From a bacterium BMS3Abin02 (GTDB taxonomy: Bacteria > Actinomycetota > Acidimicrobiia > Spongiisociales > UBA4744): DNA of 64,000 nucleotides. The notes under the pieces are model-generated. The model had not been told where the DNA came from. It saw only the letters and a list, made by a program, of their open reading frames with translations, and did no database searches. Made by a program: the position numbers and the translations under genes. Each line of letters starts with the position of its first letter. The first letter of the stretch is position 1. The stretch lies in NCBI GenBank assembly GCA_002897675.1, contig BDSU01000022.1:1-64000 (forward strand), written 5' to 3'. This document shows positions 13,889-53,078 of this stretch, piece after piece.

Positions 13889-13931
13889 AATGGTGGGGGG
13901 ACCTCTAAACTGACGCGGGAAGGAGGTGCGC

Positions 13932-15827
13932 ATGCATCGAGATCGGCTCACCCGCCCGCTCGTCCGGGAAGATGGGGCTCTTCGACCGGCATCGTGGGAC
14001 GAGGCGCTCGACAGAGCAGCCGGCGGCATCCAATCCGTCACCAGGCAGTACGGCCCGGGAGCGTTCGGGGTGATGAGCTGCTCCAAAGGCACCAACGAGA
14101 TGAACTATCTCGCACAGAAGCTCGCCCGTGTCGCCGTTGGAACCAACACGATCGACTCGTGTAACCGTACCTGACACGCTCCCAGTGTCGTCGGTCTGGC
14201 GACAGTATTCGGAGCAGGTGGTGGAACGAGTTCCTACAAGGAAGCTGAGGACACCGGTCTCATCGTCCTGTGGGGTTCCAACGCGCGCGATGCACACCCG
14301 ATCTTCTTTCATCATGTCCTCAAGGGGATCCGCCGCGGTGCGAAGCTGATCGTCGTCGATCCCAGACGCAGCTCATCCGCGGCGTTCGCCGATCTCTGGC
14401 TCGGCCTCGACGTTGGATCCGACATCGCCCTGGCCAACGCAGTCGGGCGCGAGATCATCACGGCCGGCTTGCACAACCGCGAGTTCGTCGAACGTGCCAC
14501 GAGTGGCTTCGACGACTACCGAGCCGCCGTCGATGCATGGACGCTGGACCGAGCGGCCGAAGTCACCGGCGTCCCTGCAGATGCCATCCAGGAGTTCGCC
14601 CACGCCTACGCCCTCGCGTCGACGGCCCAACTGTGTTGGACCCTCGGGATCACCGAACACCACTGCGGGACCGACAACGTCTTCTCACTGATCAACCTGG
14701 CGTTGCTCACCGGACACATCGGTCGATGGGGATCCGGCCTGGTCCCCTTGCGGGGTCAGAACAACGTTCAGGGAGGAGCCGACATGGGTGCGCTTCCGAA
14801 CAAGCTTCCCGGCTTCAAGGACGTGTCCGACGACGTGGAGCGGGCCCGGTTCGAGGCAGCGTACGGCACGCAGCTGCCGGCCGAACCCGGATGGCACATC
14901 TCGCAGATGTTCGACGCGATGGAACGCAATGACCTCAGGTCCGTGTACATCATCGGTGAGAATCCGGCGCAGTCCGAAGCCGACGCGACGAGGGTACGCG
15001 GGCTCCTCGCCGGCCTCGATCATCTCGTCGTGCAAGACATGTTCCTCACCAAGACGGCAGGGTTCGCCGACGTCGTCTTGCCCGCGGCGGCAGGCTGGGC
15101 CGAGACTGACGGAACCTTCACCTCGTCGGAGCGTCGGGTGCAGCTCGTGCGGAGAGCCCTGGACCCGCCGGGCGAGGCGAAAGACGACCTTGTGATCATC
15201 GCCGACCTTGCCGCACGCCTCGGCCACGACTGGGGCCATCCGACTGCAGAGGAACTGTGGGATGAGCTGCGTGGGCTCTCGGCGATCCATGCGGGAATGA
15301 GCTATGAGCGTCTGGCATCCCACGGTGGCCTTCAATGGCCGTGCCGAGACGAGGACGATCCCGGCCGGCCATTCCTTCACGGTCGCCTCTGGGACGATCC
15401 GGTGACCGGCTCCAGGGCACCGTTCACGCCCGTCGAGTGGATTCCCCCCGTCGACGAGCTCAGCGAGGAGTATCCCATCAGGCTGACCACGGGGCGCCGA
15501 CTCGATTCCTACAACACCGGTGTGCAGTCCGGCCGGTACTCGTCGCCGAAACGATGGGGTGAGAGCATCGATCTCTCACCGGAGGATGCTGCCACTCTCG
15601 GGCTTGCCGATGGCGATCTGGCACGCGTTACGTCGAGACGCGGATCTGTCGAGGCGCCCGTGCGGACCGATCCAGACCTGAGACCCGGCCTGGCGTTCAT
15701 GACGTTCCATTTCCCCGACCAGGTGGACACGAATGTGCTCACGTTGGATGCCTGGGATCCCAAGTCGGGAACGTCTGAATACAAGGCGACGGCGGTCAGG
15801 ATCGAAGGGCTTGGAGAGTCTTCATGA
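13932..15827 (+). CDS. fdhA: Formate dehydrogenase catalytic subunit, selenocysteine-containing, lacking N-terminal Fe-S domain
   Basis: The frame is interrupted only by TGA at 14172-14174. Around it the protein reads I-D-S-C-N-R-T-[U]-H-A-P-S-V-V-G-L, aligning with the E. coli FdhF active site (C-A-R-V-U-H-G-P-S-V-A-G-L), so the codon is read as selenocysteine, Sec81. Full length is 631 residues. Downstream motifs fit the molybdopterin oxidoreductase family: D-A-H-P-I, V-D-P-R, R-G-Q-N-N-V-Q-G-G-A-D-M-G-A-L-P, and a C-terminal molydop-binding domain. AAGGAGG lies 5 bases before ATG 13932. The usual N-terminal [4Fe-4S] domain is missing, and the protein starts at H-R-D-R-L-T-R-P-L. The missing piece ends the gene at 17581-18387. 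The reaction is formate to CO2 at Mo/W-bisMGD, in the cytoplasm (no signal peptide). Confidence 0.93.
14172..14215 (+). promoter_or_regulatory. Selenocysteine UGA codon and bacterial SECIS hairpin
   Basis: UGA is at 14172-14174. Downstream RNA can fold with an outer stem GCTCC (14178-14182) to GGAGC (14211-14215). The apical stem TGTCGTC (14186-14192) pairs with GGCGACA (14198-14204), closing a GGTCT pentaloop (14193-14197). From memory of the E. coli fdhF SECIS, that element also has GGUCU at its tip and the same 18-nt distance from UGA. SelB binds this loop in known systems. No selA, selB, selC or selD gene is in the window, so they must lie elsewhere. Confidence 0.88.
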
Positions 15828-40854: not shown

Positions 40855-41045
40855 CCGGTAGCCGAGGCTTATGGGCGCTGATCCAGGAGACAGTTGAAAA
40901 TAGGGTCCTTTGTCTGCCATTTGGCCTCTAGAAACGGAATGCCGCCGGGCGTACGGTGACATGTGATGGGCAAGCATGTCCATTTGAAAACCAGGAGAGA
41001 AGAGGGGTCCTGAGAGACCGCTCTGTTGTCAAGGAGTCTGCGCCC

Positions 41046-42980
41046 ATGAAACGCGAAATCGTCTTCGCGGCAGTGCTCATGACGGCTCTGACACTGGCGG
41101 CGTGCACAAACGGGTCGACCTCCACGACTGTGGAGGCTCCGGTGACCACGTCGACAGCGGCACCGACGCCATCCACTACCACTACCGCTACCACTACTAC
41201 TGCGGTGGCAGCGGTCACACTTCGAACCGACTGTGAGACCTGTCATGCGGATGTTCACGGTACGTGGACCACAGGGTCGCACGCAGATACCCAGGAAGAC
41301 GTCGCGAGTGAACTCGGCGAGGAGCGTGCCGGTCAGACTCCCGACGATGTCATCCACGGTGATGATCCCGAGAACTGCATCGCATGTCACGCCCCGACCA
41401 CCGGGGCGACCATGAGTGCCGTTGAAGCCCTCGACATGTTCTTCACGACGACCGATGGTGTGTTCACGAGCGACACGGCCACCAAAGATACGCCGGACTG
41501 GCCGGCCGTCACCTGCACTGCCTGTCACGAAGTGGCCGGCGATCACCCTGCAGCGTCCATGCCCACCGTCGCGGCATTCGATGCCACGTCCGGGTCGTAC
41601 ACGGCGGTTGTTGGGACGAGCGCGCTATGCGGACAGTGCCATGGGACGCTCAGGTTTCCCGACACCGACCACGTGACCTACGACGACTGGAAGGCCGGTG
41701 TGCATGCGGATACGCAGAGCGATGTGGCCGGTGAGTTGGCCGAGGAGCGTGCCGGGGAGACGCCGGCCGATGTCATCAGCGGTGATGATCCGGAGAACTG
41801 CATCGCCTGTCATGGACCGTCGGCGGTTCTCGCCAACGGCGGCATGAGTGAACAGGATGCGTTGGCCTATTTCTTCACGACGGACAACGGCCAATTCGGC
41901 GCAGCCACAACGAGTGCGCATCCCGATGAGTGGCCGAGTGTCGGATGCGTGTCTTGCCACAACCCGCACAACCCGCAGCAACCGGCGCTGTTGGATTCAT
42001 CGACAGGGAAGTACGTCGCGATGTCGAGCAGCTCGCGGCTCTGTGGCCAGTGTCACGGGAGTCTCCGCTTCGACACAGATCATCTGACCTTCGACGCCTG
42101 GTCCTCGAGTGCGCATGCGGCGACACAAGCAGACGTCGCCGCCGAGTTGGCCGAGGAGCGTGCCGGGGAGACGCCGGCCGATGTGATCGGTGGCGATGAT
42201 CCGGAAAACTGCATCGCCTGTCACGGTCCTACGGCGGTACTCGCCAACGGCGGCATGAGTGAGGCCGACGCACTCGCCTACTTCTTTACGACGGATGGCG
42301 GGAAGTTCGGCGCTGCGACGGTATCCGACCACACGTCCGAGTGGCCGAATGTCAGCTGTTCGACCTGCCATGATCCCCACAACCCGACCCAGCGTTCGCT
42401 GTTCGACTCGTCGACCGGCGAGTACCTAGTCATGAAGGACAGCTCGCAGCTGTGCGGACAATGTCATGGGAATCTGCGGTTCCCCGACACCGACCATCTC
42501 AGCTACAACATCCTGACCGGTACCGGCGGCATCAACGTGGCGGACGGCCGCACCATGCCGGGAACGACCTGCACCAGCTGCCACATGTACACGAGTGATG
42601 TCGATGGGAGTAACTCGTCGATGCAGCATGGGCACACTTGGGCGATCCTCACTCCCGAGGCAAATGGCGAGACCACCGCTTCGTGCAGCCAATGTCATGC
42701 AAACTTCTCGAGCAGCGACATCGAGGCGAAGATCACCGCATGGCAGGACTCATTCCAGTCGCTCGACGCAGTGGTGGCGGGAAGAGTGGCTGCTGCGAGT
42801 GGGGCCATGACAGGTGTCGACGATGCGGACCTTCAGGCCAAGCTGGACGAGGCACAGAAGAACCTGGCGCTCGCGGAGGGCGACGAGAGCGGCGGATTCC
42901 ACAATCACAACTATCTGATGGCTCTCCTGAAGGACGCACAGGCGAGAGCCGAAGAGGTGCTTTCCGCCCTCGGGAAGTAG
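41046..42980 (+). CDS. Dodecaheme cytochrome c lipoprotein with internal repeats
   Basis: ATG 41046 (AAGGAG 9-10 bases upstream) gives 644 residues. A lipobox L-A-A-C ends at C20, followed by a serine/threonine-rich linker. Twelve CxxCH haem motifs follow in the order CETCH, CIACH, CTACH, CGQCH, CIACH, CVSCH, CGQCH, CIACH, CSTCH, CGQCH, CTSCH, CSQCH. Three repeats of roughly 140 residues each start D-T-Q-x-D-V-A, then E-E-R-A-G-x-T-P-x-D-V-I-x-G-D-D-P-E-N-C-I-A-C-H and end C-G-Q-C-H-G. The C-terminal 110 residues are helical with two more haems. It is likely an outer-surface electron carrier. The family is not recognised beyond multiheme cytochrome. Confidence 0.93.
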   Translation: MKREIVFAAVLMTALTLAACTNGSTSTTVEAPVTTSTAAPTPSTTTTATTTTAVAAVTLRTDCETCHADVHGTWTTGSHADTQEDVASELGEERAGQTPDDVIHGDDPENCIACHAPTTGATMSAVEALDMFFTTTDGVFTSDTATKDTPDWPAVTCTACHEVAGDHPAASMPTVAAFDATSGSYTAVVGTSALCGQCHGTLRFPDTDHVTYDDWKAGVHADTQSDVAGELAEERAGETPADVISGDDPENCIACHGPSAVLANGGMSEQDALAYFFTTDNGQFGAATTSAHPDEWPSVGCVSCHNPHNPQQPALLDSSTGKYVAMSSSSRLCGQCHGSLRFDTDHLTFDAWSSSAHAATQADVAAELAEERAGETPADVIGGDDPENCIACHGPTAVLANGGMSEADALAYFFTTDGGKFGAATVSDHTSEWPNVSCSTCHDPHNPTQRSLFDSSTGEYLVMKDSSQLCGQCHGNLRFPDTDHLSYNILTGTGGINVADGRTMPGTTCTSCHMYTSDVDGSNSSMQHGHTWAILTPEANGETTASCSQCHANFSSSDIEAKITAWQDSFQSLDAVVAGRVAAASGAMTGVDDADLQAKLDEAQKNLALAEGDESGGFHNHNYLMALLKDAQARAEEVLSALGK

Positions 42981-47516: not shown

Positions 47517-48662
47517 GTGGCCGCTGATCGTCCCAATGTTCGCCATCCGAAGCAACGACGGACCGTGATTCGAGCGCGTGCGATCATTGTGGCGGGCGGG
47601 TTCGCGTTGCTTGTTCTGGTGCTCTTCGCGGCGACGGCGTGGGCTTTCGATGGCCCGACACCACCACGGCAGGGTGACCCCTTCGGCTCGAATGTGGCGC
47701 CTCACGGTGGCTACTCGGCCGGCAGCAACATGTGTCTCCAATGTCACGACGTGCACGACGCGAGCGGGGACTATGCGTTGATGTGGAAGAACAGCGTCAC
47801 CTTCATGTGCGCGACGTGTCACGGTTTGCATGGGCTCCGTGGAACGCTCGGGCTCCCGAGCGATTGCAGCGGGTGCCATGACATGCACGGAAGCTTCTTT
47901 CCTGCACCCCGAGACCCGGTCGGACCGGGAACCCTCGGCACGGTTTCGAGACGGAGTGCCTACAACACCTCCACACCGGCGTCGGCACATGGCATCGGGG
48001 CCCTTGCGCCTCCCGGTGAGACCGCCATCGTGATGACCCGGTCCGACTGGCAGTACTCGTGGGGGGCGAGCGGTCCGCCGGCTGCGGATGCGACGAACCC
48101 GTCGGGTCCAGGCACGGCGTCCGATGCCGGGGGCGGGCTCTACTGTGGGAGCTGTCACACGCCGCACGGCGACTTCGGGCAGGTCGTGAACAAGTGGACG
48201 TCGGCCGACGAGGGAAGGTCGATATGGTGGACCAACCCGGCCACGGGGGATCAGGAACAGAGGTTGTTGCACTATGACATCGGATCGGCCGCGTGGCAGG
48301 TGTGCGACGCCGACATCACCAATTGCGAGTTCGCACAAGTGCGAGATGCCGAGAACCAATTGGTGTACCTGTACGGATACAAGCTGTTGTCGGCGTATCC
48401 GAACCACGCGTACTCGACGCCCCAGAGCTACGGCACCGAGCAGGACGACGACGATGGGGCTCGATGGTGCGGCACCTGTCACACCTCCCGGGTCGACGGC
48501 GCCGGCTACCACAACCATCCGACGGGATGTAGTGCCTGTCACGGCAACCCGGCCGATGGAGCATCGACCGACTTCCCGCACACGTCAAGCGCAGATTCGC
48601 TCCTCATTGCCTACCCGGACGCGCTCTGCGTCACCTGTCATGCGTCGGGCAGCCTGCCATAG
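47517..48662 (+). CDS. Exported heptaheme cytochrome c
   Basis: The GTG at 47517 (GGAGG eight bases upstream) gives 381 residues. A basic N-terminus leads to a signal sequence with hydrophobic core near residues 22-42 (A-T-A-W-A-F likely cleavage region). The mature part has seven CxxCH motifs: CLQCH, CATCH, CSGCH, CGSCH, CGTCH, CSACH and CVTCH, with H-D-V-H, H-D-M-H and H-T-P-H distal histidines typical of doubled CXXCH repeats. These resemble NrfB/OmcX-like repeat cytochromes. It is probably exported and electron-carrying. Genes on the plus strand follow to 53 kb with the same orientation. Confidence 0.9.
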   Translation: MAADRPNVRHPKQRRTVIRARAIIVAGGFALLVLVLFAATAWAFDGPTPPRQGDPFGSNVAPHGGYSAGSNMCLQCHDVHDASGDYALMWKNSVTFMCATCHGLHGLRGTLGLPSDCSGCHDMHGSFFPAPRDPVGPGTLGTVSRRSAYNTSTPASAHGIGALAPPGETAIVMTRSDWQYSWGASGPPAADATNPSGPGTASDAGGGLYCGSCHTPHGDFGQVVNKWTSADEGRSIWWTNPATGDQEQRLLHYDIGSAAWQVCDADITNCEFAQVRDAENQLVYLYGYKLLSAYPNHAYSTPQSYGTEQDDDDGARWCGTCHTSRVDGAGYHNHPTGCSACHGNPADGASTDFPHTSSADSLLIAYPDALCVTCHASGSLP

Positions 48663-48921: not shown

Positions 48922-49581
48922 ATGACAAAGCGTCTGCTGGTGGTCGCGGCCTTGCTGATCGTTGTGATAGCGGGTCTGGCGACTGCCATCTGGTATCGAA
49001 CCGGGACTCACGACCCCGTCATCGCCAAGGTCGACAACATACTCATCCACGAATCCCAGGCCGATGCCAGGATTGCGGGGATCGCCGCGGTGCACAAGGA
49101 CATCACTTCGGCTCTGGGACCCGAATGGCGCTCGCTCGTATTTCAGTCACTCGTCGATGACGTCCTCATGGGGCAAGAAGCACGGCGAGCCGGCATCGAC
49201 GTGACCAAGAAGGACGTGGACGCGTCACTCGACTCCCTGCGCGGCAGATTCCCTTCCGAAGACGACTGGAGACGCTTCCTGGAGGACCAGGGCATCGATC
49301 AGGCCGAACTCGAGCGGAGAATCCTGCTTCAGCTGGTCGGTTCCAGGGTCTACGAGGAAGTCACGGCCGACGTAGTGCCCACCGAGGACGAGCTTCACGC
49401 CTACTTCGAGGCTCACCAGTCGGACTTCACCGTCGATGGCGAGGTGCAGTCTTTTCTCGAGGTTCGCAACTCGATCGAGGACACGCTCACGAAGCAGATG
49501 CAGGACGAGGCGTTCAGTGTGTGGCTGCAGCAGCGCCGCAGTGAGGCGAACGTCGTGGTGGTGAGCGATGAGTGGCGATAG
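48922..49581 (+). CDS. Membrane-anchored SurA-N-like chaperone/foldase-related protein
   Basis: The 219-residue protein has one N-terminal membrane helix (residues 5-25) and no lipobox. The outside domain begins V-I-A-K-V-D-N-I-L-I-H-E-S-Q-A-D, then has a helical region with E-A-R-R-A-G-I-D-V-T-K-K-D-V-D, a pattern of the SurA N-terminal/trigger-factor-like chaperone domain of parvulin foldases. The parvulin rotamase domain is absent. It probably helps secreted proteins fold, and the neighbouring cytochrome genes are the obvious clients. It overlaps a small ORF by 14 bp. Confidence 0.75.
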   Translation: MTKRLLVVAALLIVVIAGLATAIWYRTGTHDPVIAKVDNILIHESQADARIAGIAAVHKDITSALGPEWRSLVFQSLVDDVLMGQEARRAGIDVTKKDVDASLDSLRGRFPSEDDWRRFLEDQGIDQAELERRILLQLVGSRVYEEVTADVVPTEDELHAYFEAHQSDFTVDGEVQSFLEVRNSIEDTLTKQMQDEAFSVWLQQRRSEANVVVVSDEWR

Positions 49582-49774
49582 GAGCCCGAGCGTCGGACTC
49601 TCCAGGGGTCCCGTCATTGTCGCCCTCGAAGACATGCGACTCGTCCGAAGCGATGCAGAAGGAGTCGAACAGTTCCACGGAGCGGCGGTCGCCGATGCGC
49701 GGTTCCTCTTCGATGCCGGCTTCGGTCTCGCTCGGACGCCGCAAGGACTCGGTTCTTCGATCTCGGTCCCGTGA
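49568..49774 (+). CDS. Small protein of 68 residues, unrecognised
   Basis: ATG 49568 begins inside the stop of the SurA-like gene (14-bp overlap) and ends 10 bp before the NHL gene start, so it fits the operon exactly. Codon third positions are mostly G/C like true genes here. The sequence has V-I-V-A-L-E-D-M-R-L-V-R-S-D and G-A-A-V-A-D-A-R-F-L-F-D-A-G-F-G-L-A but no motif I recognise and no signal peptide. It could be a chance open frame. Confidence 0.4.
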   Translation: MSGDRSPSVGLSRGPVIVALEDMRLVRSDAEGVEQFHGAAVADARFLFDAGFGLARTPQGLGSSISVP

Positions 49775-49784
49775 AGGAGCGCGC

Positions 49785-50933
49785 ATGGAACCGACACGAG
49801 AACCACCGATGGAGCAGGAACGGCAGCGTGGGAAGCAGGTCTCGACACACCGCCTGCTCTACGCTCTGGTCGCTCTTCTCGGCATCGTTGCGATCGCCCT
49901 CCTCGTCGTGCTCGTCTGGTTGCTGCGTCCTCAGCCCACCTCGACGGCGGTTGCGGCGAAGGGATGTCCCATGGACATCACGCGTTCCATCTACGGATTC
50001 GGGACCAAGCCCGGCGAGTTGCTGGTCCAACCCCTCGCGGTCACTTTCGACGGCATGGGCAACGTGTGGGTCTCCGACACGGGGAATGCCCGAGTCGTCG
50101 AGTTCGGTCCCGACGGCAAGCTGATTCGCTCCGTGGGCGACGACGGAGGTCCGGGGCGTCTCCACAGCCCCTACGGCCTGTCGTTCAGCAGCGACTTCCA
50201 GCGTCTCTACGTGGCGGACTGGACCCGACGAGAGGTGCTGATCTTCTCGGCCGAGGGACGCTACGTGCAAAGCCTGCCCGCAGGCGACCAGGACCTTGCC
50301 GTGTTCGGGCCCGACGGTTTCTCTCCCTACGATGTCGCCGTTCGCGGAGCCCAGATCGTGGTCGCTTCCAATGATGGTCTGTACTTCTTCGACAGATCGG
50401 GGTACGTCGTTGATCGGTGGGGAGGCGAGACGCGAGGATCCGACGTGGGCAGTTTTGCGTTCCCGGATGCTCTGGCCATCGACCCGACAACGGGCAACGT
50501 GTACGTTGCGGACACTCTCAACCGGCGCGTCATTGCGCTCGACGGCGACGGGAACGTGCTCTGGGTCTCGGGAGAACGTGATGAGCAGGGCAAGATCGTC
50601 GGCTTCTGGCAGCTTCCGAGATCGGTTGTGGTCGGCCCGGATGGTCTGGTCTACGTCACCGACACCTTTCGAGCCCAGGACCGCTGCGCCGGCACAGGGC
50701 ACATCGTGGTCCTGAAGCCGACGGGAGAGCTGGTCTCCGAGTTTGGTGCAGCCGGGCGATCGGAGGACACACTCAGCTTCCCGGAGAAGATGGCGATCGG
50801 CCCGGATGGCACGTTCGCCATTGCCGACCGCGAGAACAATCGGGTAGTGGTGTTCACCGTCGGTCCGCTGCCACCCGCCGATCCCGGTGAAGCGAGCCTC
50901 TACGAGAAGTCGTTCGTTCGTTTCGGGCAGTGA
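49785..50933 (+). CDS. Membrane-anchored NHL-repeat beta-propeller protein
   Basis: ATG 49785 has AAGGAG seven bases upstream and gives 382 residues; a longer frame upstream overlaps the previous ORF and is not protein-like. One transmembrane helix spans about residues 25-47. The exterior has six NHL-type blades such as P-L-A-V-T-F-D-G-M-G-N-V-W-V-S-D-T-G-N-A-R-V and P-D-A-L-A-I-D-P-T-T-G-N-V-Y-V-A-D-T-L-N-R-R-V. NHL propellers bind proteins or ligands; some sit next to cytochromes in metal-reducing bacteria. It is in the cytochrome operon, so a scaffold or electron-transfer partner role is possible. Confidence 0.88.
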   Translation: MEPTREPPMEQERQRGKQVSTHRLLYALVALLGIVAIALLVVLVWLLRPQPTSTAVAAKGCPMDITRSIYGFGTKPGELLVQPLAVTFDGMGNVWVSDTGNARVVEFGPDGKLIRSVGDDGGPGRLHSPYGLSFSSDFQRLYVADWTRREVLIFSAEGRYVQSLPAGDQDLAVFGPDGFSPYDVAVRGAQIVVASNDGLYFFDRSGYVVDRWGGETRGSDVGSFAFPDALAIDPTTGNVYVADTLNRRVIALDGDGNVLWVSGERDEQGKIVGFWQLPRSVVVGPDGLVYVTDTFRAQDRCAGTGHIVVLKPTGELVSEFGAAGRSEDTLSFPEKMAIGPDGTFAIADRENNRVVVFTVGPLPPADPGEASLYEKSFVRFGQ

Positions 50934-51021: not shown

Positions 51022-51723
51022 ATGGCGCGATCCGTGGAACGTATGATCGGGTACCGGAAACTCCTCGCCGACCTCGAAGAGAGCGGATGCCCGGTCTGTC
51101 GTGGATCGGTTCGCGCGGCGGCCAAGTACCTGGAGGGCCTGCTCTGGGAGAACGTGAACGATTCCGGCGTCCGCGAGGAACTTCGCGACGATCACGGGTT
51201 CTGCCGAGAGCACTCCTTGGCCCTGCTGCAGGTGGCCGGGGCGCGCAGCGAAGCTCTCGGTGTGGCCATCGTCTACGAGGACCTGCTGGACCACATCGAG
51301 CGGGACGTCGCCAACGGGGGACCGAATCCTCGACATAGATCCCTCCGCCTTCGGTCGAACACGAGGCCCGGCCGGTCCTGTCGGGCTTGTGCGGTCGCCG
51401 ACGATGTGGCCGTCAACTATCTCGGCATCATCGCGGCCTCCGAACCGGATGGTGCTGCGGGTCGACGGCTCGAAGGAGCGGTTCTGTGCTTTCCGCATTT
51501 CTCGAGGGGATTGGGGATCCCGGGGATCGATCATGCACGACTCGAGTCGGTGTATCTGCGAGGGTCGGTCTCGATCCGGTCTGAACTTCGGCGTCTCATC
51601 GATCATGCCGACTATCGGCGGGCCGATGAACCCTGGGGGCCAGAGAAGGACGCCTGGGTGCGCGCCATTCACCTGATCGTCGGTTCTCCCGCACACGGTG
51701 CCGTCGCGGACTCGCGACCATGA
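51022..51723 (+). CDS. Cytosolic protein with two CxxC-CxxH modules (DUF6062-like)
   Basis: The 233-residue protein has no signal peptide or membrane helix. It carries two copies of a C-x2-C-x(32-34)-C-x2-H motif: C23, C26, C61, H64 and C120, C123, C156, H159. The intervening sequences are helical. This pattern (C-P-V-C then G-F-C-x-x-H) resembles DUF6062-type proteins, whose function is unknown. Four such ligands could hold zinc or an iron-sulfur cluster. It overlaps the next gene by 4 bp (ATGA) and lies 88 bp after the NHL gene. Confidence 0.7.
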   Translation: MARSVERMIGYRKLLADLEESGCPVCRGSVRAAAKYLEGLLWENVNDSGVREELRDDHGFCREHSLALLQVAGARSEALGVAIVYEDLLDHIERDVANGGPNPRHRSLRLRSNTRPGRSCRACAVADDVAVNYLGIIAASEPDGAAGRRLEGAVLCFPHFSRGLGIPGIDHARLESVYLRGSVSIRSELRRLIDHADYRRADEPWGPEKDAWVRAIHLIVGSPAHGAVADSRP

Positions 51724-53078
51724 GCAGCTCGGAGCCGGCGCAAGGAGCAGCCCGGCCGGCTGACGAATGTCCCGTATGCAGCGAAGTGTCCCTGGCTCGC
51801 CAGAGACACTGGTTCTGGGTGTTCGCCGAGAAACTCGGAGATGGGGCGTTCCTCACCCGACTCGGAGCGGGAGGCGGCTACTGCGTCAGGCACGCTCGTG
51901 AGCTGCTTCTGCACGAGCAGGGAGAGCGCACGGCCCGGGGGTTCCAATTCGTGCTGCGAGGATGGCGAGATGGTCTCGGCGGTTCGATGCGTCTCGACTG
52001 CCCTGCCTGTCGTATCGAGGTCGAGACGGAGGCGTATGTCCTGCGTCTGCTGAGTCGTGGATCGTGGAGCGGAGATCAACAGACACGTCTGGACCCGGAC
52101 GCCCTGTCATGTCTGCCGCATGCCCGGATGCTCCTCGAGCAGGCACCGGAGGGAATACTCTCTGAGGCCCTGAAGCGGCTGGGTGCAACGGTTGATCGGG
52201 TGCGGGCAGGTGACGGTAGATCGCAGGCCGAGATCCACACTGCAATCGGTCACGGGTACGACGAGGCCTTCCGGAAGGCTGAACGTTGCGACACCGATGC
52301 CACGGCCGTGCTCTCGTTCGACGCCTTGGATCGTGCGCTCGCCCAAGGGTGGTGTCCTCTCTGTCTGGCAGGCCGAGAGGCGTCGGAGAACGTCATCGGA
52401 TGGCTCGGGCATCCGGATCGAACCGACCGAGATCAGGACGATTTCGCCCGGTTGTGTCCGTCCCACCTGTGGGACGCCGCGGCGAACGATCCGGAAGCTT
52501 CTGTCCGGACGATGCAGCGGATCCGTCGAACATGGATCAGGAGCCTCGGGGGACTCGAGACCCTTGTCGAAGGGGCCGCGCCGTCTGATCGGAAGGGACG
52601 ATCGGGCAGTGGGTGGCGGAGCAGGTTCCGTGGATGGTTGGAACGGGCGTTCCCGAGACGCAGTCGTGAAGTCCAGCTCCGCAAGATTCTCGTCCAGGAG
52701 GAGTGTGTGGCGTGCGTCGCAGCCGTGACTGCGGTCGATCGTGGCATTGCACTCCTCGACGCCTACCTTCTCGACACGGATCGGAGCGACTGGTACCTGC
52801 GTTCGAGCGGCGTGTGCCTGCAGCATGCCTATGTCGCGATCCCTCACCTCGGTGAGCAGCCTGCTTGCGTCGTGACCGACCGGGCGAAGACTCTCATCGC
52901 GCGCACGATGTGGGGGCTGGAAGAAGCGATCCGCAAGGTGAGCTGGTCGGTCCGGTATGAGCCGCCCGGGGAGGAGTCCGAGATGTGGCGTGAAGCGGTC
53001 GTCCTCACCGTCGGACGAGGCGTGTTGTGCTCAGATTGGCTCGCGCCCGTTCCTCAGCGACCCGAACGAGCGGTATAG
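51720..53078 (+). CDS. Cytosolic protein with four CxxC-CxxH modules
   Basis: The 452-residue protein has four modules of the same kind as its upstream neighbour: C17, C20, C55, H58; C94, C97, C131, H134; C212, C215, C246, H249; and C329, C332, C366, H369. A basic region with G-W-R-S-R-F-R-G-W-L-E-R lies between modules three and four. It has no signal peptide. I recognise no catalytic domain. The two proteins together present six modules and probably bind each other or a shared partner. Location directly after the cytochrome genes is the only functional clue. Confidence 0.7.
   Translation: MSSSEPAQGAARPADECPVCSEVSLARQRHWFWVFAEKLGDGAFLTRLGAGGGYCVRHARELLLHEQGERTARGFQFVLRGWRDGLGGSMRLDCPACRIEVETEAYVLRLLSRGSWSGDQQTRLDPDALSCLPHARMLLEQAPEGILSEALKRLGATVDRVRAGDGRSQAEIHTAIGHGYDEAFRKAERCDTDATAVLSFDALDRALAQGWCPLCLAGREASENVIGWLGHPDRTDRDQDDFARLCPSHLWDAAANDPEASVRTMQRIRRTWIRSLGGLETLVEGAAPSDRKGRSGSGWRSRFRGWLERAFPRRSREVQLRKILVQEECVACVAAVTAVDRGIALLDAYLLDTDRSDWYLRSSGVCLQHAYVAIPHLGEQPACVVTDRAKTLIARTMWGLEEAIRKVSWSVRYEPPGEESEMWREAVVLTVGRGVLCSDWLAPVPQRPERAV

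Follow-up and report, generated by a model that had tools for sequence, protein, structure and literature searches.

What is the task of two overlapping genes, here called P1 and P2, that lie behind a multihaem cytochrome cluster and encode proteins built around two and four copies of a C-x2-C...C-x2-H module? The pair lies within a 64,000-nucleotide stretch of DNA (the window), and we approached the question through the proteins themselves, their relatives, and the genes that surround those relatives in other genomes.

Modules and gene structure of the pair

P1 (51022-51723, + strand) encodes a 233-aa protein with the modules C-x2-C-x34-C-x2-H at residues 23-64 (C23/C26...C61/H64; 51088-51213, + strand) and C-x2-C-x32-C-x2-H at residues 120-159 (C120/C123...C156/H159; 51379-51498, + strand). 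P2 (51720-53078, + strand) encodes 452 aa, and its four modules, all on the + strand, have spacers of 34 (C17, C20, C55, H58; residues 17-58; 51768-51893), 33 (C94, C97, C131, H134; residues 94-134; 51999-52121), 30 (C212, C215, C246, H249; residues 212-249; 52353-52466) and 33 (C329, C332, C366, H369; residues 329-369; 52704-52826). These ligands account for all six cysteines of P1 and for 12 of the 15 in P2. When each protein was shuffled 100,000 times with its composition preserved, at least one module arose by chance 44 times for P1 and 133 times for P2, and no shuffle reached two modules for P1 or four for P2. The array of two and then four modules at near-constant spacing (spacers of 30-34), which the initial annotation had pointed out, is thus well founded, as are the 4-bp overlap of the genes and the cytosolic location without signal peptide that it had also claimed. 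The overlap, in which the stop of P1 and the start of P2 share the bases ATGA (51720-51723, + strand), is identical in the genome of a sister species (L021). Kyte-Doolittle 19-mer maxima (1.5 for P1, 1.6 for P2) are below those of the neighbouring cytochrome, PPIase and NHL proteins (2.6-3.2), so we judged both proteins to be without a transmembrane or signal segment; none was evident by this measure.

Both genes are under purifying selection, with dN/dS values between window and sister genome of 0.27 for P1 (77% identity) and 0.11 for P2 (92% identity). The CxxCH haem motif is absent from both proteins, which together with the lack of an export signal argues against haem c binding or an identity as c-type cytochromes. 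Domain searches found no DNA-binding, signalling or recognised catalytic domain in either protein, and no Fe-S family matched P1, P2 or 43 relatives (described below). A defence role was rejected, as PADLOC gave no match of note.

A conserved two-module family and its double-length branch

By its sequence, P1 is an ordinary member of DUF6062 (Pfam PF19538; E 1.9e-14, 54.2 bits over two stretches, above the curated cut-off of 27). The standard protein of this family contains one pair of modules, whose spacing is near-constant across two-module proteins from Actinobacteria, Chloroflexi, Armatimonadota, Pseudothermotoga and Thermococcus. When 43 DUF6062 proteins from these groups (five phyla, with Thermococcus among them) are aligned, no column but those of the eight ligands is invariant; L14, G22, E43, V45, N46, D47, G59, G80, L174, E208 and G221 are nearly invariant, E43, N46 and D47 lying within module 1 of P1. 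P1 holds all eight ligands, and all 43 relatives match PF19538 and no other Pfam family. The two modules are themselves homologous (hhalign E 3.5e-12). Three short Chloroflexota members encoded beside MoxR genes, which stand outside the 43-sequence alignment, have Asp where module 2 otherwise ends in His (C-x2-C...C-x2-D; L067:7328-8002, L068:6350-7285, L153:2174-3577); Asp is another metal ligand, and such an exchange would be tolerable at a metal site. A plasmid search yielded one match, in Thermomicrobium roseum.

P2 reaches 27.2 bits against PF19538 in a single stretch, marginal beside the cut-off of 27. Each of its halves nonetheless matches the whole DUF6062 profile (hhalign E 6e-29 for the N-half, 2.5e-31 for the C-half), making P2 a tandem double DUF6062 protein. 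With four modules in two tandem domains it departs from the usual architecture of one two-module domain per protein, usual being meant here descriptively and with no formal Pfam criterion. P2 is a member of a divergent, double-length and poorly recognised subfamily, with homologues in the sister species (L021), in another actinobacterial family (L033), in one actinobacterial genus where three genomes carry them (L088-L090) and in Chloroflexota (L067, L068, L152 and L153, with incomplete copies at the ends of contigs in L154 and L155). Pfam barely detects this subfamily: L153 scores 23.5 bits, below the cut-off of 27, and L068 gives no match. An alignment of seven four-module proteins shows no variation at any of the 16 ligands, with identity to P2 outside the genus at 24-33%. 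The invariance of 8 ligands in the one group and 16 in the other argues for the metal binding that the initial annotation had proposed, although haem c, with no CxxCH, drops out of its list of candidates.

When two-module proteins were put in a tree together with the separated halves of four-module proteins, the N-halves fell into one clade (support 0.92) and the C-halves into another (0.98). The two clades branch in similar order, so the doubling took place a single time, early on; L159 appears to be an independent doubling. P1 is placed in a separate actinobacterial clade of two-module proteins (0.99), and in a tree of whole four-module proteins P2 clusters with Chloroflexota proteins that are encoded in MoxR operons (support 0.976). 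The adjacency of the genes and their shared module might suggest that P2 is simply a recent local duplicate of P1, merely longer. The tree rejects this, and we find it scarcely credible: P1 and P2 lie in separate, deep clades and so are not local copies of each other, and the halves of P2 join those of other four-module proteins rather than P1.

AlphaFold2, given the 43-sequence alignment, modelled P1 with confidence (pLDDT 89.2, pTM 0.84) as an all-alpha fold in which helices begin at the Cys-x2-Cys and Cys-x2-His pairs. The model of P2, built from seven sequences, is all helical and too poor to interpret (pLDDT 52.6). Foldseek found no PDB relative of the P1 model (best E 2.3, TM 0.15) and nothing under E 1.5 in the PDB or BFVD, hence no viral relative; phmmer searches of the PDB with P1, P2 and the 43-sequence profile returned chance-level matches only. 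Neither the sequence searches with P1 and P2 nor the fold search with P1 thus gave a link to a solved zinc-finger or Fe-S fold. The module 2 region aligns with zinc-binding S18 ribosomal proteins at E ~0.2, a chance-level match and not evidence of homology. The initial annotation had held that no known function fits, and had named a strong match to a known zinc finger of unrelated function as what would refute it; no such match appeared, the best family match being a DUF, and Foldseek gave no PDB relative. Its statement on function stands, since DUF6062 is functionally unexplained and was named in no paper of the literature searched, including papers on MoxR/DUF58 and CrcB/DUF190; what changes is that the proteins now belong to a known family, PF19538, albeit one without known function.

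Neighbours of the pair and of DUF6062 genes elsewhere

Upstream of P1 lie genes for a seven-CxxCH cytochrome c (47517-48662, + strand; Paired_CXXCH_1 E 2.5e-17), a SurA-type PPIase-like protein with an N-terminal hydrophobic segment (48922-49581, + strand; SurA_N_3 E 2.9e-11) and an NHL-repeat beta-propeller protein with a hydrophobic segment (49758-50933, + strand; NHL E 4.7e-20), the last ending 88 bp before the start of P1 on the same strand. The adjacency to cytochrome genes reported initially is therefore one of nearness, as the PPIase and NHL genes intervene. Cytochrome-PPIase-beta-propeller operons of the SEEP-SRB type have been described for extracellular electron transfer (PMC12246660, citing Skennerton 2017), and their content resembles that of the genes upstream of P1; the consulted portion of that description makes no mention of DUF6062. 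The sister species keeps the order of cluster and DUF6062 genes, and only in these two species does the pair adjoin the cluster. Three related cytochrome-PPIase-NHL clusters (in G007, in G028 and the second cluster of G001, G001:C81) are without DUF6062, a family present in 2 of 99 relatives and in 14 of 296 genomes sampled from the phylum. Across 55 DUF6062 loci, cytochrome or NHL neighbours occur at one, that of the sister species. Taken together, these observations mark the cytochrome link as local and lineage-specific, and the general connection that the initial annotation implied falls away.

Several other features of the region were recorded in passing. The sister cluster contains two further multihaem cytochromes (L021, 7411-8643 and 10971-11804, with 9 and 10 CxxCH motifs), for which no open frames were found at the corresponding place in the window. 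Elsewhere in the window are a cytochrome with twelve CxxCH motifs that matches cytochrome c552 (NrfA-like) and MtrC-like domains (40956-42980, + strand), about 2.5 kb from an NrfH-like six-CxxCH protein, and a histidine kinase (HisKA_3) with a LuxR-family response regulator 2.8 kb downstream of P2 (55887-57838, + strand). A formate-dehydrogenase-like gene (13926-15827, + strand), adjoined by genes for NADH-binding and Fe-S subunits, has an in-frame TGA at 14172-14174 in the context SCNRT-U-HAPSVVG, which appears typical of selenocysteine formate dehydrogenases.

Within 4 kb of the 55 DUF6062 loci, the recurring neighbours are a zinc-ribbon HEAT protein (15 loci), MFS (13), DUF190/CBS (12), MoxR (10), a CPA antiporter (9), a DUF58-like protein (9), CrcB (8), a protein that by its sequence start is histidine-phosphatase-like (7), Usp-CBS (7) and a dynamin-like GTPase (5). 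These tallies were made by tblastn and six-frame HMM searches, because gene calls based on codon usage miss or mis-start genes in GC-rich loci. When the locus from which a seed came was excluded, the zinc-ribbon HEAT gene lay near in 14 cases and far in none (p 0.0002); the corresponding near and far counts were 8 and 0 for DUF58, 7 and 0 for the CPA antiporter, and 8 and 1 for MoxR. Most positional tests for the main families were modest (p about 0.0002 to 0.06, own-seed loci excluded), and the enrichment figures give no more than an indication, the loci being related and having themselves supplied the seeds.

A pair of like composition occurs at three Chloroflexota loci (L067, L068 and L153), where a short and a four-module DUF6062 gene flank MoxR-DUF58-DUF4129 (neighbours identified as AAA_3, DUF58 and DUF4129). 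The MoxR genes of the present genome are about 90 kb from P1/P2 or on other contigs, with none near the pair. Nor is the MoxR link universal, since four-module genes have other neighbours in L088-L090, directly behind a complex-I/group-4-hydrogenase-like operon, and in L033, beside a dynamin-like gene. In Thermococcus, a prenyltransferase-toroid-like protein precedes DUF6062 (L059, L061, L064, L066), and in two of these loci (L061, L064) crcB and DUF190 follow; the Thermococcus genes have no cytochrome nearby.

Candidate roles and known systems

The explanation we favour, as a whole about evenly poised between right and wrong, is that P1 and P2 are cytosolic, zinc-stabilised adaptors or regulators of the DUF6062 family, the partner of P2 being likely linked to MoxR. 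The two proteins would be made together, probably by co-translation, and each pair of modules would form one all-helical domain with two putative Cys3His metal sites, P1 having one such domain and P2 two in tandem. The sites would most likely hold structural Zn2+, and the proteins would most likely act through protein-protein contact on membrane-associated machinery. Zinc-stabilised adaptors fit the invariant Cys3His ligands, the near-constant spacing, the helical fold and the lack of a catalytic or DNA-binding domain, and the recurrent neighbours are consistent with a role in serving machinery linked to the membrane. For P2 our best guess is the system of a chaperone-like, MoxR-type ATPase: because its nearest relatives are encoded in MoxR-DUF58-DUF4129 operons, its partner may be a MoxR-type AAA+ ATPase or a protein remodelled by one. 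The pair may also be co-transcribed with the upstream cytochrome-PPIase-NHL cluster of the extracellular-electron-transfer type.

Other chemistry at the metal sites would imply other roles. Could the pair be a cytosolic thiol/zinc redox switch, in which oxidation of the CxxC motifs frees zinc as a report on the redox state of electron export towards the cytochrome system? Cys3His sites with CxxC beside multihaem cytochromes would suit such a switch, as would the four-module relatives behind the complex-I/group-4-hydrogenase-like operon. We nevertheless think it unlikely, given that P1 and P2 offer no domain for DNA binding or signalling, that redox neighbours are missing at most DUF6062 loci, and that His and Cys are equally invariant, which is expected of a structural site. 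Fe-S clusters held by three Cys and one His, with the proteins carrying electrons or sensing iron or oxygen, are compatible with the ligand set and with the electron-transfer genes next door; with no Fe-S family matched and no redox partner conserved across DUF6062, we rate this reading as decidedly improbable.

The position of the genes suggests a further role, in which the proteins would be dedicated to the adjacent cluster and help, from the cytosol, to make or export its multihaem cytochromes. The shared strand, the 88-bp distance from the NHL gene and the order kept in the sister species all speak for it. Against it stand the three related clusters without DUF6062, the single cytochrome-bearing locus among 55, and the Thermococcus genes, which sit beside a prenyltransferase-like gene, CrcB and DUF190. 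Because nearly all DUF6062 loci, those of Thermococcus included, are without such cytochromes, we disfavour a general role in cytochrome making, and we give the dedicated role here a slim chance. The impression that P1 and P2 are cytochrome factors is thereby corrected: their placement looks local and does not reflect a general job.

Beyond the zinc-stabilised adaptor reading, we offer a bolder proposal, which is speculative and on balance unlikely: that four-module DUF6062 proteins make up a class of their own, as yet unnamed, of cytosolic metal-site proteins that have a fold absent from the PDB and act as adaptors for MoxR-type AAA+ systems, and that in this genus the short and four-module pair was recruited to a new use, working on the cytosolic side for a cytochrome operon of extracellular electron transfer. 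More generally, DUF6062 is found in bacteria and in Thermococcus archaea; its putative metal ligands are strictly conserved, its fold is confidently predicted and has no PDB relative, and its neighbours recur (MoxR ATPase operons, CrcB/DUF190/CBS, CPA antiporters and zinc-ribbon HEAT proteins). From the four-module subfamily and the MoxR genes around it comes a concrete and testable hypothesis on the partner.

Set against known systems, P1 resembles PF19538 in its two C-x2-C...C-x2-H modules, its length (about 240 aa in the family), the E-x2-N-D motif after the first helix and E-P-x-G-x-E...W near the C-terminus, whereas P2 differs from the family in being double-length, divergent and at the Pfam cut-off. 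The architecture of P2 is that of the Chloroflexota four-module proteins (L067, L068, L152, L153), its nearest relatives outside the genus in the tree. Their genes lie in MoxR-DUF58-DUF4129 operons, the setting by which an accessory protein of a MoxR system would be recognised; in this genome, by contrast, the P2 gene lies instead behind a cytochrome-PPIase-NHL cluster.
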